64,000 bases of DNA from Methanolinea sp. (GTDB taxonomy: Archaea > Halobacteriota > Methanomicrobia > Methanomicrobiales > Methanospirillaceae): contig JALOPW010000001.1 of the NCBI GenBank assembly GCA_025453675.1, positions 62,001 to 126,000 of the forward strand, in the 5' to 3' direction. The notes below the pieces were generated by a model. The model was not told where the DNA came from, searched no databases, and saw only the letters and a program-made list of their open reading frames with translations. Shown one piece after another: positions 21,301 to 29,719 of this stretch (position 1 is its first letter; every line of letters starts with the position of its first letter). The position numbers were made by a program, and so were the translations under genes.

Positions 21301-22779
21301 ATGGATCCCCGGTACATTGTGCGCCAGATGCTCGGGATCGACACCGTCCGCCGGCAGGCACTCCTCTCAGTAGGTGCGAACGTGGGGATCACTGCTGTAG
21401 GATACCTGGCCACGGTCTATATCGCCCATGCTGCAGGTGCAGAGGTGCTGGGGGCGTATTTCCTCTTCCTGGCCTACTACAGCCTCGCGGCACTCGGGGC
21501 CGACGGGGGGATGGGGGGCGCGGCGGTCAAGCTCATCAGCGAAGGGAAGGACGAGGAGGCGTATTTTACTGCCCAGGCCGTCATCCGGCTCTCTCTCCTG
21601 GCACTCTGCACCGGCCTGATTGTCCTTGTCATCTCCCCGTTCATGAGGGATTTTTCCAGCGCCGGGCTCCTTCCCTGGCTGATTCTGGCACTCGGTGCAG
21701 GGGCCGTCGGCGGGATCCTGTCCACCGGGGTGTATGGAGGTGGGAGCGCCGGAGCTCTCCAGGTATCCGAGTTTGCCAGCACCGTGGTTCGGGTGGTGGT
21801 GCAGGTGGCGTCGGTCTATGCGGGTTTTGCCATGGCAGGGATGGCTGGGGGGTTCGTGGCAGGGATACTCGCGGCCATTCTGATCAACTCCCGGTTCCTG
21901 CGGTTTCATGTGGCCAGGTTCGGGTGGCGGCATGTCAGGGCCATGATCCCCTATGCCGCCTGGGGGTTCCTGACCGCGCTTGCAGGTGTCCTGGCAGGGT
22001 ATGCGGACACGGTCCTGGTGGGGTATTTTCTCGACAGCACGGAGGTGGGATATTACCGGGCGCCGATGCAGCTGGCGGTCCTGGCACTCTTCGTTGCCAC
22101 CTCCCTCTCCACCGCCCTCTTCCCCTGGATCAGCAGGTGGAAGCAGGAGCACGAGATAGAGTCCATTCGGCATACCGCGGGACGGGCACTCTCCTACTCC
22201 CTGGTGCTGGCGGTACCGCTGGTGACCGGAGGCCTGATCCTGGGAGAGCGGCTCCTCTATTTCCTGTATGGATCACCGTTCGTGGTGGCCACAACGGCAT
22301 TCTCTCTCCTCCTGCTGGCCCAGATAGGTATGGTCATCTTCACCCTGGACGCCATGGTTCTCGGGGCACTCGGCCAGCCCCGCACGGTCTTTTTTGTCAA
22401 TGCAGCCTCGGCAGCGCTGCTCATCGGGCTGGAACTGGTCATGATCCCGCTCTATGGCATCACCGGGGCGGCAACAGCAGTCTTCCTGGCATACCTGGCC
22501 AGGGCCGCCGCCGCCAGGTGGTCCCTTTCATGCCATATCCATATCGGTGGTGAGAGGAAGGTTATCGGAAATATCCTGGCAGCAGGTGCGGTCATGGCCG
22601 CAGTGGTCATCATTCTGCGGTCGATAATCCCTCTCGTTCATGTTGCGATCCTGGTGCTGGTTATCCTGGCAGGGGCCCTCGTCTTCTTCATGGTTCTCTT
22701 CAGACTGGACAGGGTAATGCATGATGAGCTCTCTCAATTAGGCAGGCACCTCGGCCTTCCATGGCCATCCTGGTTGTAG
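21301..22779 (+). CDS. Flippase / polysaccharide biosynthesis membrane protein
   Basis: 12-14 TM; YADTVLVGYFLDSTEVGYYRAPMQLAVL typical of the MATE-like flippase family. Confidence 0.9.
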   Translation: MDPRYIVRQMLGIDTVRRQALLSVGANVGITAVGYLATVYIAHAAGAEVLGAYFLFLAYYSLAALGADGGMGGAAVKLISEGKDEEAYFTAQAVIRLSLLALCTGLIVLVISPFMRDFSSAGLLPWLILALGAGAVGGILSTGVYGGGSAGALQVSEFASTVVRVVVQVASVYAGFAMAGMAGGFVAGILAAILINSRFLRFHVARFGWRHVRAMIPYAAWGFLTALAGVLAGYADTVLVGYFLDSTEVGYYRAPMQLAVLALFVATSLSTALFPWISRWKQEHEIESIRHTAGRALSYSLVLAVPLVTGGLILGERLLYFLYGSPFVVATTAFSLLLLAQIGMVIFTLDAMVLGALGQPRTVFFVNAASAALLIGLELVMIPLYGITGAATAVFLAYLARAAAARWSLSCHIHIGGERKVIGNILAAGAVMAAVVIILRSIIPLVHVAILVLVILAGALVFFMVLFRLDRVMHDELSQLGRHLGLPWPSWL

Positions 22780-22866: not shown

Positions 22867-24120
22867 ATGCCCATCCGGGAGCTTGTGGTATCTAATTTCA
22901 AGAGTTTCCGACACCTGGAGATCCAGCCGGACAACTTCAATGTCATCATCGGTTCCAATGCCTCGGGAAAGTCGAACTTCATCCAGGTGATCAAGTTCAT
23001 CCGGGATATTGCCAAGTACGGGCTCTCGAATGCCATCTCCCTGCAGGGGGGGGTCGAGTATCTGCGAAACACCATTATCGGCCCCGAAGAGCCCTTCTCC
23101 ATCCGGATCACCTATCTGCTGGAGGACAGGAGGGTGGATATCGTGGGGATGAGGAACGGCGTCCCTGTCTACTTCCACCCAGAAGAGATCCGCTACGCGT
23201 TCTCCCTTGCATTCCCTGATGCAGGAGAGGTGTATGAGATCGCTTCTGATGCCCTGGAGGTGAAGGGAGAGTTCCTTCGCCAGGAGGGGGGGGAGCAGAA
23301 GAGTGCAGGCGTCGGGACCATAGCGCTCGTGAGGGCAGGCGGCCCCACCCAGTACTGCATATGTCCACCGAAAGGTCTCGATATGCAGGAGGACGAGATC
23401 TTCCCGTACTACTTCCAGAGGCAGGACATCCCCGGGGGGACGCTGATCATGACCCTTCCACTCTTCGTCCCTGGCATTCCCTCCCTGGAATGGATATTCC
23501 GGGGAATGAAAGTGTATGACTTTGATCCCCGCCTGCTCAAGAGGGCGGTGCCCATCATGGGCAAGACCGATCTCGAGAAGGATGGGAGCAACCTGGCCAT
23601 CGTAATCAAGAAGATCCTCGATGATCCGGCGAAGAAGGAGACGTTCACCCGGCTGCTTCGGGATGTGCTTCCTTTCGTCGATGATGTCGCGGTCGAGAAG
23701 TTCATGGACATGTCCATGTTCCTGAAATTACGGGAGATATACAGCAAGGAGAAGTACCTGCCCGCTTCGATGATCTCCGACGGCACCATTAATATCTGTG
23801 CCCTCCTGATCGCCCTCTACTTTGAGGAAAGGCCGGTGACCATCATCGAGGAGCCTGAAAGAAACATCCACCCCTACCTCATCTCCCGGCTGGTAGAGAT
23901 GCTCAAGGATGCATCCCGCTCAAAGCAGGTTATTGTCACCACCCACAACCCCGAGATGGTCAAACACGTGGACATCCAGGATATTCTCCTCATCAGCCGG
24001 GACAGCGAGGGGTTCTCCCGCCTGACCCGGCCTGCAAATAAAAAGGAGATAAGGGAATTCCTGGAAGATGAGATTGGCATAGAGGAACTCTTCATACAGA
24101 ACCTGCTAGGGATGGAATGA
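22867..24120 (+). CDS. AAA-family (RecF/ABC-like) ATPase
   Basis: VVSNFKSFRHLEIQ..VIIGSNASGKSNFIQVIKFIRD Walker A; VTIIEEPERNIHPYLISRLVEML Walker B; VIVTTHNPEM. Confidence 0.9.
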   Translation: MPIRELVVSNFKSFRHLEIQPDNFNVIIGSNASGKSNFIQVIKFIRDIAKYGLSNAISLQGGVEYLRNTIIGPEEPFSIRITYLLEDRRVDIVGMRNGVPVYFHPEEIRYAFSLAFPDAGEVYEIASDALEVKGEFLRQEGGEQKSAGVGTIALVRAGGPTQYCICPPKGLDMQEDEIFPYYFQRQDIPGGTLIMTLPLFVPGIPSLEWIFRGMKVYDFDPRLLKRAVPIMGKTDLEKDGSNLAIVIKKILDDPAKKETFTRLLRDVLPFVDDVAVEKFMDMSMFLKLREIYSKEKYLPASMISDGTINICALLIALYFEERPVTIIEEPERNIHPYLISRLVEMLKDASRSKQVIVTTHNPEMVKHVDIQDILLISRDSEGFSRLTRPANKKEIREFLEDEIGIEELFIQNLLGME

Positions 24121-24788
24121 CCGAACGACGGCTCTTTATCCTTTTGGAAGGGAATGATGACGAGCGGTTCTTCTCCCGGGTCGTCGTTCCCCTCCTCGCC
24201 CCCCGCTATCGATCAGTGAGAGTGGTCAAGTATGCCTGCCTGAAGAGATCCAGGGTATGCCGGTTTGTCCGAAGTTTCCAGCGGACGGGGGACGAGTACA
24301 TGGTGGTCGCCGACATCGACCAGGCACCTGGAGTGAAGGCAAAGAAGGATGCCGTCATGGGAAGGTTCTGTGTGCTGAAACCAAGTGACATTGTGGTCAT
24401 CATCCAGGAAATAGAGAGCTGGTACCTGGCTGGTCTCGAGACATCAGACGCAAGGAGGTTGGGGGTGAATCCTCTCCCGTCAACCGATCATGTCACAAAA
24501 GAGGATTTCAATACTACTATCCCCCCCCAATATGTCTCCAGGATTGCCTATATGCTGGAGATCCTCTCCCGGTTCTCCATCGCTGCCGCCTGCCGGAAGA
24601 ACCGGTCCTTTCACTATTTCATGACCCACTATCACCTGGCGAGGGATATCCCATCCTTGCAGGTGGTGGCGGATACGACAGGCAGGGGGGGAGAGCATCA
24701 GGAAGGCTCTCAGGGAGAAGCATCGAGCAGGACTGGCGAAGACTCCACTGACCCGGAAGTAGGCCGCGGGAAGCCAGGGACTTTATGA
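24117..24788 (+). CDS. TOPRIM/DUF4276-like putative nuclease partner of the AAA ATPase; C-terminus uncertain
   Basis: ATGA overlap with the ATPase; FILLEGNDDERFFSRVV (acidic E motif), VVADIDQ (DxD), VVIIQEIESWYLAG. Confidence 0.65.
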   Translation: MTERRLFILLEGNDDERFFSRVVVPLLAPRYRSVRVVKYACLKRSRVCRFVRSFQRTGDEYMVVADIDQAPGVKAKKDAVMGRFCVLKPSDIVVIIQEIESWYLAGLETSDARRLGVNPLPSTDHVTKEDFNTTIPPQYVSRIAYMLEILSRFSIAAACRKNRSFHYFMTHYHLARDIPSLQVVADTTGRGGEHQEGSQGEASSRTGEDSTDPEVGRGKPGTL

Positions 24789-24845: not shown

Positions 24846-26906
24846 ATGGGGGTATGGAAGTACAGGATCCCGGCAATCCTTGAACAGAAGTATTTCTGGA
24901 TGGCAATTCTCCTCGTCAGCACATTGTTTGCATTTCTGTTAAACCTGTACAGTCTTGAGAGGGGTCTCACCATCATTACCCCCCATCTCTTCTATATCCC
25001 CATTGTCATCGCCGCCTACTGGTTCCCGAGGAAGGGAGTCCTCTATACCGTGGCCATTGCCATGGGCTACCTGGCGATGGTCTATGTCCTGGGATACCCG
25101 AACCTGGAGATCCTCACCCAGGGAACGGCACAATTCTACGTCTTTGTCGCCATCGGGGTCATAGTGGCATCCCTTTCAAGCACTCTCAAGGAGCAGGAGG
25201 ACCGCTACCACGGGATCTTCGACTACTCGGAGGCAGGGGTCTTCCTTGCCATGAACCTCCGTTCCGGGTTCGTAATCGAGGAGGTGAACCAGCGTGGAGC
25301 CGATCTCCTGGGGTATAAGGCACGCGAACTGGCCGGGAGAGCGCTCCTGGATTTTTTCACCGAGCCTGAAGAGAAGGCCCTGATACAGGCCAGAGTCTCT
25401 CCCGGTGGAGCGGTGACCGAGTTCGAGTGCCATATCAGGAGAAAGGACGGCTACGTTCTCCACGGTCTCATGTCGGCAGGCCCTCTCCCCGGGAGAAAGG
25501 TGGTGTTCACCCTGGTGGACATCACGGGCATGAAAAAGGCAGAGGAGGCGCTTCGCGAGAGTAAAGAGCGGTACCAGGGGCTCTATAACAACGCCCAGGT
25601 GGGTCTCGTGCGCGCCAGCATCGCGGACGGCTGGATCCTCGAAGCGAATCAACAGATGGCAAATATGTTCGGGTACTCGTCTGTAGAAGAGTTTATCAAG
25701 GAATTTCGGTTTCCGGAGCACTACGTAGACCAGGGTGTCAGGGAGCAGCTCATTGCGCTGCTTGCAGATACCAGCACGATATCCAACTTCGAAGCTCGTT
25801 TCACCAAAAAAGACGGGACCATCCTCTGGACCCGGTTCTGGACCAGAATCTTTCCAGAGAAAGGGTATATGGAGGAAGTGTTCACCGATATCACCGAGGA
25901 GAAGCATTCGCACAGGGCGCTGGACGAGAGCGAGGAACGGTACCGGAAACTGGTGGACAATCTTCCGGATTATGTGCTGGTGTTTTCCAGGGACAGGATC
26001 CTGTTCGTGAACCCGGCAGCAGCACGCGCTTTGGGAAAATCTCCGCAGGATATGGTGAATCACTCCATATTTGAATATATCAGCCCGGCATCATGGGATA
26101 CACTCAGGACACACAGCGGTGGAAGGGCTTTGGGTATGCACATTGATCCCTATGAGATTATGCTCTCACTCCAGGAAGGACACTCCCGGACAGTGCTGGT
26201 GAATACCGCCCCCATCACCTACCGGAACGAGGATGCCACCCTTGCGGTGCTCACCGATATCACCGAACGGAAGCTGGCGGAAGAAGAACTGAAGGCATCC
26301 ACGGACCAGTACATGGCCACCATCGATGCCATGGTCGATGGTATATTCCTGGTAAACCGCGACCTGGAGATCGTCCTCGTGAATTCCACATTCAGGAGGT
26401 GGCTGAGACGTATCGGGAAGAGCCACGAGATGATTGGACAGGATGTGGAGGATACCCTCCCCTGCATTGCCGGTCCGGCACTCGATGCTATCAGGAATGT
26501 GTTTGACGCGTGTAAAAGCCTGGAGACGACCATCAACGTCCAGATCAACGGAAGGGAGTATATCTTTGAGACCCGCCATATCCCCGTGTATGAAGAGCAG
26601 CAGGTCGCCAGGGTCATGACTATCATGCGCGATGTCACCCGGCCCCGCAAGATCGAGGAGGAGAAGAGGCTTGCATACCATCAGATCGAGAAGAACATCG
26701 AGCAGTTTGCGATCCTGGGCGATCACCTGCGAAATCCCATGCAGGTGATCGTGGGTCTGGCTGACCTGGAAGGGGGCCCACTCGCAGAACAGATCCTCCT
26801 GCAGACACAGGAGATCGACAGGACTATCTCCCAGCTCGACCGGGGCTGGATACAATCAGAGAAGATTCGGGAGTTCATCCGCAAATATTACGGGATAGGT
26901 AAGTGA
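24846..26906 (+). CDS. Multi-PAS sensor protein with HisKA-like end but no HATPase domain
   Basis: Several PAS/PAC blocks (VDITGMKKAEEALRESKERY, TDITEEKHSHRALDESEERY); ends ILGDHLRNPMQVIVGLADL...IREFIRKYYGIGK with no N/G boxes. Confidence 0.85.
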   Translation: MGVWKYRIPAILEQKYFWMAILLVSTLFAFLLNLYSLERGLTIITPHLFYIPIVIAAYWFPRKGVLYTVAIAMGYLAMVYVLGYPNLEILTQGTAQFYVFVAIGVIVASLSSTLKEQEDRYHGIFDYSEAGVFLAMNLRSGFVIEEVNQRGADLLGYKARELAGRALLDFFTEPEEKALIQARVSPGGAVTEFECHIRRKDGYVLHGLMSAGPLPGRKVVFTLVDITGMKKAEEALRESKERYQGLYNNAQVGLVRASIADGWILEANQQMANMFGYSSVEEFIKEFRFPEHYVDQGVREQLIALLADTSTISNFEARFTKKDGTILWTRFWTRIFPEKGYMEEVFTDITEEKHSHRALDESEERYRKLVDNLPDYVLVFSRDRILFVNPAAARALGKSPQDMVNHSIFEYISPASWDTLRTHSGGRALGMHIDPYEIMLSLQEGHSRTVLVNTAPITYRNEDATLAVLTDITERKLAEEELKASTDQYMATIDAMVDGIFLVNRDLEIVLVNSTFRRWLRRIGKSHEMIGQDVEDTLPCIAGPALDAIRNVFDACKSLETTINVQINGREYIFETRHIPVYEEQQVARVMTIMRDVTRPRKIEEEKRLAYHQIEKNIEQFAILGDHLRNPMQVIVGLADLEGGPLAEQILLQTQEIDRTISQLDRGWIQSEKIREFIRKYYGIGK

Positions 26907-27133: not shown

Positions 27134-27637
27134 GTGCAGGTATCCATGAAACTGGAGATGAAGGATGCCCCCGGGCAGCTGGTGGCAGCCCTAAAGCCTG
27201 TCTCCGAGGTGGGGGGCAACATCATCGCCGTGATCCATCAGCGCGATGAGAAGCAGCGGGGTGGTATGCTGAGTGTCCAGATCGTGCTTGAACTCCCCGA
27301 ACAGCGCGTGAAAGATTTGACACGGCTTATCAGGGAGCAGGGGGTCAATATCCAGCGGATAGGGCATGAACGCCTCCTGTACCAGAAGACGGTGATGGTG
27401 ATCGGGCACCTCATCCATACCGATCTCGGGGATACCGTGGACCGCATCGACTGCACAGGGTATGCCGAGGTGACCGAACTGAATATCAGCATGCCGGCAA
27501 TTACCCAGGTTTCTTCTGCCCGGCTTCTGATAAAGGCGGTGAACAGGGAGGATATGGAGCAGGCGATGGCTATCCTCCGCCGGGTGGCAAAGGAGAAGGA
27601 GTTCCTGCTGGTCGAACCTCTGGAGGAGATAGAATGA
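27134..27637 (+). CDS. ACT-domain amino-acid-binding protein
   Basis: MKLEMKDAPGQLVAALKPVSEVGGNIIAVIHQRDEK; located before homoserine dehydrogenase. Confidence 0.88.
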   Translation: MQVSMKLEMKDAPGQLVAALKPVSEVGGNIIAVIHQRDEKQRGGMLSVQIVLELPEQRVKDLTRLIREQGVNIQRIGHERLLYQKTVMVIGHLIHTDLGDTVDRIDCTGYAEVTELNISMPAITQVSSARLLIKAVNREDMEQAMAILRRVAKEKEFLLVEPLEEIE

Positions 27638-28632
27638 GAGTAGCCATTCTCGGCATGGGGTCGGTAGGCAGGGGTGTGCTGCAGATGATCGAGGAGAAGA
27701 ACCTTGGCATCACCGTCACAGCCGTGGCAGACTCAAAGAGCGCCCTTATGGACAGGGACGGTATCAGGATCGAGGAGGTGCTGGAGGCGAAGAGGATCCA
27801 CGGGTTCTGTGGTGACAAGTCCCTTGGTGCCATGGACGTGGTGACAGGGGCTGCGTACGATGTCCTGGTGGAGGTTACCCCGACGAACGCCGGCACTGGG
27901 GAGCCCGCCCTCACCCATATCCTCACCGCTATGGAGCGGGGACATCACGTGGTCACCTCGAACAAAGGCCCGATATCACGAGAGTTCTCCCGCCTCCGGT
28001 CAATTGCCGCAGAGAAGGGGGTACAGTTACGGTACGAGGCCACGGTGGGCGGGGCTATCCCCATCATACACACACTCACCCAGGGACTGGCCGGAAACAG
28101 GATCCTTGCAATATTCGGGGTTTTGAACGGGACCTGCAATTTCATCCTGACCAGGATGGCTGCTGAGGGTCTCACCTACGAGCAGGCCCTGCTGGAGGCC
28201 AGGGAGATGGGGTATGCAGAGGCCGATCCCACGTACGATGTGAAAGGTATCGATCCTGCGATTAAACTCGTGATCCTCGCGAATACGATCTGCCGGGAGA
28301 CCTTGAAACTGGAGGACGTGGAGATCACAGGGATCGATCTCCTCACCAACGATGCGCTCCGCCTTGCTGAAGAACAGCACTGCACCATCAGGCTGATCGC
28401 CGAGGCCATCCCTGACCGGGGAATTCTGCGGGTTGCCCCCAGGCTGCTGCCGATCTCACATCCCCTTGTGGTGGAGGGGACCCTCAATGCCATCACGATC
28501 GAGACGGATATGGCCGGGGAGATCACCCTTATTGGAAAAGGTGCGGGATCTGTGGAGACAGCAAGTGCCATCATCGGCGATCTCCTCTACATACGGGATG
28601 CCCATGCGGGGAGTCATTCAAAAACGACGTGA
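27634..28632 (+). CDS. hom: Homoserine dehydrogenase
   Basis: GMGSVGRGVLQMI, ATVGGAIPIIHTLTQGLAGNRILAIFGVLNGTCNFILTRM, EADPTYDVKGIDPAIKLVILAN. Confidence 0.95.
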   Translation: MRVAILGMGSVGRGVLQMIEEKNLGITVTAVADSKSALMDRDGIRIEEVLEAKRIHGFCGDKSLGAMDVVTGAAYDVLVEVTPTNAGTGEPALTHILTAMERGHHVVTSNKGPISREFSRLRSIAAEKGVQLRYEATVGGAIPIIHTLTQGLAGNRILAIFGVLNGTCNFILTRMAAEGLTYEQALLEAREMGYAEADPTYDVKGIDPAIKLVILANTICRETLKLEDVEITGIDLLTNDALRLAEEQHCTIRLIAEAIPDRGILRVAPRLLPISHPLVVEGTLNAITIETDMAGEITLIGKGAGSVETASAIIGDLLYIRDAHAGSHSKTT

Positions 28633-29719
28633 GTACCTGCACCTGATGCGGGCCTGCACCCTGGAACGCGGGTACTTCACGGTGACCGATATCCAGGGGG
28701 GTGTTTCGGTACCCCGGAGCACGGCCCAGGACTGGATCAACCGACTGCTTGACGAGGGGTGCGTGGTGGTCCGGGAGAGGAAGATAGGCCGCAGCCCTGC
28801 CAGGTATGCGGCAATAAGCGCGCTCCCCTCCAGTGCCTGCAGGAGGATCTTCACCACCATCGACCATGACCGGGTGGAGATCCATCATGAATGCATGAGC
28901 AGTGCCTGTGCCGCATTCTGTGCCTACCATCATTCCCATGCCGGGGGTATCCTGCAGGATATCCACAGGGATGGCACTCTTATCCGAGAGTGGGCCCGTC
29001 TTGGGTGTCAAGATGTCGATATCGGGCTGCACCCTTCGTCTGCAGTGGGGGTGGCGGGAGTGGAGAGGGAAGGGGAGGATATTGTACAGTATATCCGGTG
29101 CATCGGGGGGCCGGCGTACTCTCTCACGGACATGATGTCCCAGGCAGAGGGGGTGTGCGAGGTGAATATACAGAGATCAGGGGATATTGTTGAGGGCAGT
29201 GTCCGCACCCGTGCGCTCACTCACCTGATTATCGGCATCGATGACACCGACAGCCGGGAAGGGGGTGCCACCTTTGCTTTGGCCCTGGCCCTCCTCCAGC
29301 ACCTCGAGACCATGAAAGGAGTGCTTCCCATAGGCCACTACGTTGCCATGCTCAACCCGGGTGTGATGGAGAAGACTGCAGGCAATTCCTGCAGTTTTAT
29401 CGAGGTGGCAGTCCCGCCGGAGCTGTATGCACGTGTGCGGGACCGATCCCTCGTCTTTGTGGAGGACGAGGCGCTCTCACCGGACTGGGGGATGGCATTC
29501 AAGCAGGGATTCCGGATACCCCCGTCTCTTCGCTCTTACGGTGAGAGAGCCCGGCACGAGGTGATCACACTGGAGGAGACTGAAACGACCGCTGCGCAAC
29601 ACAACGTAGAGATATTCGGGGGACGGGGCGTCGTGGGAGCGCTTGCGGCAATCGCACTCTCAGGGCTCCCCCACGAGATCCTGCTCAGGGCTGAAGCCAG
29701 GGTGCCAGGTTCCCGTTAG
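28598..29719 (+). CDS. Winged-HTH protein fused to TiaS-like (GIDDTDS) domain
   Basis: N-terminal YFTVTDIQGGVSVPRSTAQDWINRLLDEGCVV HTH; LIIGIDDTDSREGGATFALALALL and VEIFGGRGVVGALAAIALSG as in TiaS-type proteins; overlaps end of hom. Confidence 0.75.
   Translation: MPMRGVIQKRREYLHLMRACTLERGYFTVTDIQGGVSVPRSTAQDWINRLLDEGCVVVRERKIGRSPARYAAISALPSSACRRIFTTIDHDRVEIHHECMSSACAAFCAYHHSHAGGILQDIHRDGTLIREWARLGCQDVDIGLHPSSAVGVAGVEREGEDIVQYIRCIGGPAYSLTDMMSQAEGVCEVNIQRSGDIVEGSVRTRALTHLIIGIDDTDSREGGATFALALALLQHLETMKGVLPIGHYVAMLNPGVMEKTAGNSCSFIEVAVPPELYARVRDRSLVFVEDEALSPDWGMAFKQGFRIPPSLRSYGERARHEVITLEETETTAAQHNVEIFGGRGVVGALAAIALSGLPHEILLRAEARVPGSR

Follow-up and report, generated by a model that had tools for sequence, protein, structure and literature searches.

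A vertically inherited OLD-type ATPase gene and its TOPRIM-like partner in Methanolinea resemble candidate defence pairs

Two overlapping genes lie on the forward strand of the 64,000-nucleotide stretch of Methanolinea sp. DNA analysed here (the window). Gene A (22867–24120) encodes a 417-residue ABC/OLD-type ATPase (AAA_21/AAA_15), and gene B (24117–24788) encodes a single-domain TOPRIM-like protein of 223 residues. The two share the sequence ATGA (24117–24120), and this −4 overlap recurs in nearly all loci of the Methanolinea clade. Upstream is a flippase gene (Polysacc_synt_3/MurJ; 21301–22779) that is present in some, not all, members of the genus. Downstream are a multi-PAS sensor gene (24846–26906) and a conserved syntenic block encoding an ACT protein and homoserine dehydrogenase (27134–28632), all on the forward strand. 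The reading frames, the overlap and the flanking MurJ/polysaccharide-type flippase and PAS sensor are as given in a preliminary description of this DNA, with exact coordinates for the frames and overlap, and every motif quoted there is present. A further open reading frame of uncertain start (28433–29719) overlaps the 3′ end of the homoserine dehydrogenase gene and encodes a TiaS-like TCKD domain with an N-terminal TrmB-type HTH; the ACT–homoserine dehydrogenase–TiaS-like block is kept in most of the family genomes examined.

A directly precedes B in every intact related locus that we read, making this a strict two-gene module. An A homologue adjoins B on the same strand at every locus scanned in bacterial and archaeal species genomes, with a spacing that is usually −4 to +12 nt and takes a few larger values in Methanocalculus. 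Apart from decayed remnants, neither gene was ever found alone among the scanned loci.

The ATPase motifs of A are strongly conserved among 26 relatives. The Walker A motif GSNASGKS (residues 29–36; 22951–22974) has invariant G29, N31, A32, G34 and K35, and the Walker B motif VTIIEEP (residues 324–330; 23836–23856), which runs into EEPERNIHP (residues 328–336), has invariant E328, E329 and P330. Between them MISDGTINICA (residues 302–312; 23770–23802), with invariant S304, G306 and T307, is judged from its sequence to be the putative ABC signature. The H-loop histidine H360 in VTTHNPEM (23944–23946) is nearly invariant, and T359 and P362 are fully so. A matches Pfam AAA_21 above the cut-off (6.5e-31), and its AlphaFold model (pLDDT 85) is nearest to PtuA, GajA, Rad50 and SMC heads in Foldseek searches (1e-10 to 1e-12). 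The assignment of A as a RecF/Rad50-type ABC ATPase of the OLD type is clear, in agreement with the RecF/ABC-like ATPase proposed in the preliminary description.

B carries three motifs whose conservation was scored over 26 relatives. The first, LLEGNDDERFF (residues 9–19; 24141–24173), contains the TOPRIM glutamate E11 and has invariant E11, G12, D14, D15, R17, F18 and F19. The second is the TOPRIM DxD motif, DID (residues 66–68; 24312–24320) within VVADIDQ (residues 63–69), which has invariant D66 and D68 and lies where predicted strand 3 ends. In the third, EIESWYLAG (residues 98–106; 24408–24434) within QEIESWYLAG (residues 97–106), E98, I99, E100, W102, Y103, A105 and G106 are invariant, and elsewhere K128, R142, N162 and S164 do not vary either. 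Judged by sequence, the motifs of A and B are not chance occurrences, given the AAA_21 match and the residue invariance across the 26 relatives. The C-terminal tail of B (residues 176–223; 24642–24785) is variable and modelled with low confidence; the last 45–50 residues, after about residue 175, are unconserved and predicted to be disordered. The DNA of this tail (24642–24788) is G-rich, and an alternative frame past its poly-G run looks protein-like and is absent from relatives. We considered a frameshift at the poly-G run near 24686, which would give the C-terminal frame ESIRKALREKHRAGLAKTPLTRK, and rejected it because no relative carries that tail; the variability and predicted disorder of the region also count against it.

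The AlphaFold model of B is a β-α-β sheet with pLDDT >90 over residues 1–170, in which E11 and D66/D68 sit at strand ends. The preliminary description had proposed an ATPase–TOPRIM pairing and suggested comparing B with TOPRIM folds. In the Foldseek search OLD C-terminal TOPRIM structures (6NK8, 6NJV, 6NJW and 6NJX) take ranks 1–4 and 7, with a best E-value of 2.8e-3 and a probability of 0.99 but low TM-scores of about 0.35, and the TOPRIM regions of BpOLD and XcOLD are thus fold neighbours of B. The window copy of B has no Pfam or NCBIfam match of its own, and a profile search of PDB sequences returned nothing credible and no significant match to any solved TOPRIM. Across the family, subsets of the 26 relatives weakly match DUF3226 (19/26), DUF4276 (16/26), DUF4435 (9/26) and OLD-like_TOPRIM (5/26, best 1.9e-4). 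This weak but concordant evidence would place B nearest to the TOPRIM domains of OLD nucleases. The proposed pairing is therefore clear for A and probable for B, where it draws on the fold and on sub-threshold profile matches.

Among PADLOC profiles the best family match of both proteins is HEC-01 (Hma-embedded candidate 01), which like A–B consists of two adjacent genes, HEC-01A and HEC-01B. A matches HEC-01A at 1.9e-52, compared with 6e-30 for AriA and 1.4e-28 for mad3; window B matches HEC-01B at 2.5e-4 and AriB at 0.035; and HEC-01B is matched at 0.01 or better by all 26 of the B relatives, mad4 by 12/26 and AriB by 10/26 (best 1e-5). HEC-01 is named for genes embedded in Hma defence loci, whereas A–B is vertically inherited and stands alone among metabolic genes, its neighbours encoding an ABC transporter, the flippase, the PAS sensor, the ACT protein and homoserine dehydrogenase. 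By sequence the pair would thus be filed with the candidate pair HEC-01, without the Hma context that gives the latter its name. HEC-01 traces to a preprint (reference 15 in PMC12988326) that lies outside the literature searched here, and no experimental test of HEC-01 was found within that literature.

PARIS (AriA/AriB), a class 4 OLD system, shares with A–B the split into an ABC ATPase and a TOPRIM effector encoded by adjacent genes. The AriA hexamer sequesters AriB and frees it upon a trigger; PARIS senses Ocr and cleaves tRNA-Lys, and its activity requires AriB E26, the glutamate of the first motif (PMC12409363), with which we would equate E11 of B. The kinship with OLD and PARIS systems advanced in the preliminary description is borne out, but the HEC-01 models score higher than those of PARIS. 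Resemblance to MADS is also partial: A matches the MAD3 model over its C-terminal half, but no methylase or other MADS genes adjoin the pair, and A scores 137.4 bits against the curated NCBIfam MAD3 model, which has a cut-off of 420. Its scores against the curated NCBIfam retron Eco8 and PtuA effector models are 51.7 and 44.8 bits, with cut-offs of 250 and 500. Membership of PARIS, MADS or retrons was rejected, the matches being weaker or below cut-offs. Class 1 and 2 OLD proteins (GajA, BpOLD and XcOLD) resemble the pair by fold, GajA being near A and the BpOLD and XcOLD TOPRIMs near B, but they are single-chain ATPase–TOPRIM fusions, and Gabija adds the GajB helicase.

A–B is present in all 13 Methanolinea genomes, with one copy in each, and no second A was found in the window's own genome. 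The order of neighbours is kept across the genus: ABC transporter, often flippase, A, B, PAS sensor, ACT protein and homoserine dehydrogenase. For 14 species of the Methanolinea clade, 9/11 splits are common to the trees of A+B and rpoB″. A evolves with dN/dS of 0.05–0.10, like homoserine dehydrogenase, and B somewhat faster, at 0.065–0.15; B is also the faster-evolving partner by identity within the genus (51–75%, against 66–88% for A). Purifying selection acts on the pair much as it does on the metabolic genes around it, and the dN/dS values of A show no arms-race acceleration. The patchy, laterally moving and defence-clustered profile of a defence island is thus not what is found in the genus.

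HsdR is a typical mobile defence gene. It occurs in only 3/13 of the Methanolinea genomes, so A–B does not behave like a roaming restriction gene. Cas1, however, is present in 13/13, and in a genus-level control it shares 7/8 splits with rpoB″, compared with 7/8 for A and 6/8 for B. Because Cas1 is equally vertical, descent alone cannot separate immunity from housekeeping. Flank sharing around Cas1 was uninformative as a synteny control (0.57 against 0.51), probably because the neighbours of Cas1 include its own operon mates. The preliminary description had set strict vertical inheritance as a housekeeping locus of the order against a defence role. Such inheritance holds for the genus and nearby genera and fails for the order as a whole, and the argument is itself overturned by the Cas1 control.

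Across the order Methanomicrobiales the pair is present in 99/232 genomes and occupies two or more sites; in a sample of the phylum it is found in 33/295 genomes, mostly Methanomicrobiales. A second fixed site is seen in Methanoregula, where A–B lies between a TspO gene and an FprA-type flavodiiron gene that is followed by TrkH and CfbC/D-like genes (L174:5453–9246 and other Methanoregula loci). The same TspO–A–B–FprA order is found in a different family, in Methanocalculus genome G034 (L054:8003–11675), with POR genes upstream, and Methanocalculus genome G039 retains POR–TspO–A–B. Spacing at this site is around 100 nt, gaps being mostly 55–108 nt before A and 50–150 nt after B, and TspO–A–B–FprA may be transcribed as one redox-linked unit. 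Copies from Methanoregula and Methanocalculus fall in separate parts of the A+B tree, which across the whole order agrees with rpoB″ in only 10/20 splits; these second-site copies may reflect displacement, or acquisition at a shared site.

Remnants at this site point to decay in place. In genome G048 a 71-residue piece of A alone remains between TspO and FprA (L184:5907–8285), and genome G015 retains fragments of both genes next to FprA (L034:8440–11145). Together, the second fixed site and the in-place decay suggest that A–B is an old, dispensable resident of the order. Genomes that lack the pair keep the ACT–homoserine dehydrogenase block, and none of the other flank genes adjoins it; an empty site beside homoserine dehydrogenase was sought there, but loss and original absence are indistinguishable.

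Beyond the archaea, relatives of A–B turn up singly in some ten bacterial phyla and have no neighbours in common. Their flanks are mostly metabolic with few defence-type matches; a defence-island setting was considered for them and set aside, the 92 flanking open reading frames yielding one Cas10, one RT_UG29 and methylase matches. Around the archaeal copies we saw no defence genes. The plasmids and the deposited or catalogued phages that we searched contain no copies of the pair, and the sole relative on an IMG/VR viral contig (L135:6001–6507) is distant, with 31% identity to B. In a Planctomycetota relative (L132:2416–3627), an FprA-like gene (ODP plus flavodoxin) lies two genes upstream of A, either by chance or through a functional link.

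From the computed families, pairing, motifs and fold class we infer that the two proteins assemble into a split OLD-like complex. In it, A would be the ATP-binding scaffold and sensor, a Rad50/GajA/PtuA-like ABC ATPase, and B a two-metal TOPRIM nuclease that A keeps inactive. On sensing a trigger, A would release or activate B, and the freed B would cut nucleic acid, either RNA or DNA. That A senses and gates and B cuts is most likely by analogy with PARIS and with GajA, an ATP-gated TOPRIM (as summarized in PMC12796447).

What the computed descent and selection describe in Methanolinea and its relatives is a long-settled, single-copy, vertical chromosomal module, and not a mobile cassette. 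Our preferred explanation, held with even measures of confidence and doubt, is that this module is a settled ATPase-gated TOPRIM nuclease of the HEC-01/PARIS kind, which would guard against viruses or foreign DNA and has become fixed in the lineage. The scatter of relatives through about ten bacterial phyla and the patchiness and decay within the order argue for a guard, because they mark the pair as dispensable and transferable. Counted against this explanation are the lack of a significant sequence match between B and a solved TOPRIM, the TM-scores of about 0.35, the scarcity or absence of defence neighbours, the absence of plasmid and phage copies, the absence of acceleration in A and the precedent of Cran1.

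Cran1 also anchors the main alternative, that A–B is a housekeeping or stress nuclease acting in genome maintenance, cell-cycle control or the response to redox or oxygen stress. Like the pair, this class 5 OLD protein of the Sulfolobales is an archaeal OLD-type ATPase/TOPRIM that is vertically inherited without defence neighbours; it is essential and not defensive, with a role in the cell cycle (PMC12796447). It is the closest biological parallel of A–B. The fixed synteny, single copy, rpoB″-like tree and neighbour-like purifying selection in Methanolinea all suit a housekeeping role, as does the second site between TspO and FprA. However, Cran1 is an essential, single-chain fusion, whereas A–B is split and has been lost in several relatives: the pair is not essential, because over half of the order lacks it and it has decayed in G048 and G015. 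The bacterial relatives without common neighbours also speak against a housekeeping role, and Cas1 is just as vertical in the genus. We consider this alternative a credible minority reading, and slightly favour an immune guard, itself an evenly balanced proposition, over a Cran1-like function. One specific version is possible but doubtful: that the Methanomicrobiales domesticated A–B into a resident nuclease switch, serving either genome maintenance or redox stress, and have inherited it at fixed sites from a time before Methanoregulaceae and Methanocalculaceae diverged.

An ordinary mobile PARIS-like anti-phage cassette, horizontally acquired and merely sampled here, would account for the way the two families match both candidate and established defence pairs and for the spread across phyla. 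It is improbable, and for the genus largely refuted, given the presence of the pair in 13/13 genomes with the same neighbours and a congruent tree, the lack of plasmid or phage copies and the occurrence of HsdR in so few of the same genomes. Least probable, by a hair, is that B, derived from a TOPRIM but inactive as a nuclease, partners A in a structural or regulatory capacity, or that the pair is a toxin–antitoxin unit, for which the faster evolution of B, its weak TOPRIM matches and the AbiEii toxin named in the Pfam AAA_21 description can be cited, but against which stand the invariance of all acidic TOPRIM positions in 26 relatives, dN/dS well below 1 and the confinement of solitary genes to decayed remnants.

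The immune label that defence databases attach to such pairs derives from homology alone, and the Cas1 control indicates that vertical inheritance by itself cannot decide between guard and housekeeper. If the domestication reading is true, A–B would join Cran1 as a second and independent example of an OLD-type 'defence' enzyme that serves a cellular function in archaea. The pair has a fixed address, a single copy and neighbour-like selection across a whole genus, yet is dispensable in relatives, and it allows the choice between these two roles to be put to the test for archaeal split OLD systems.
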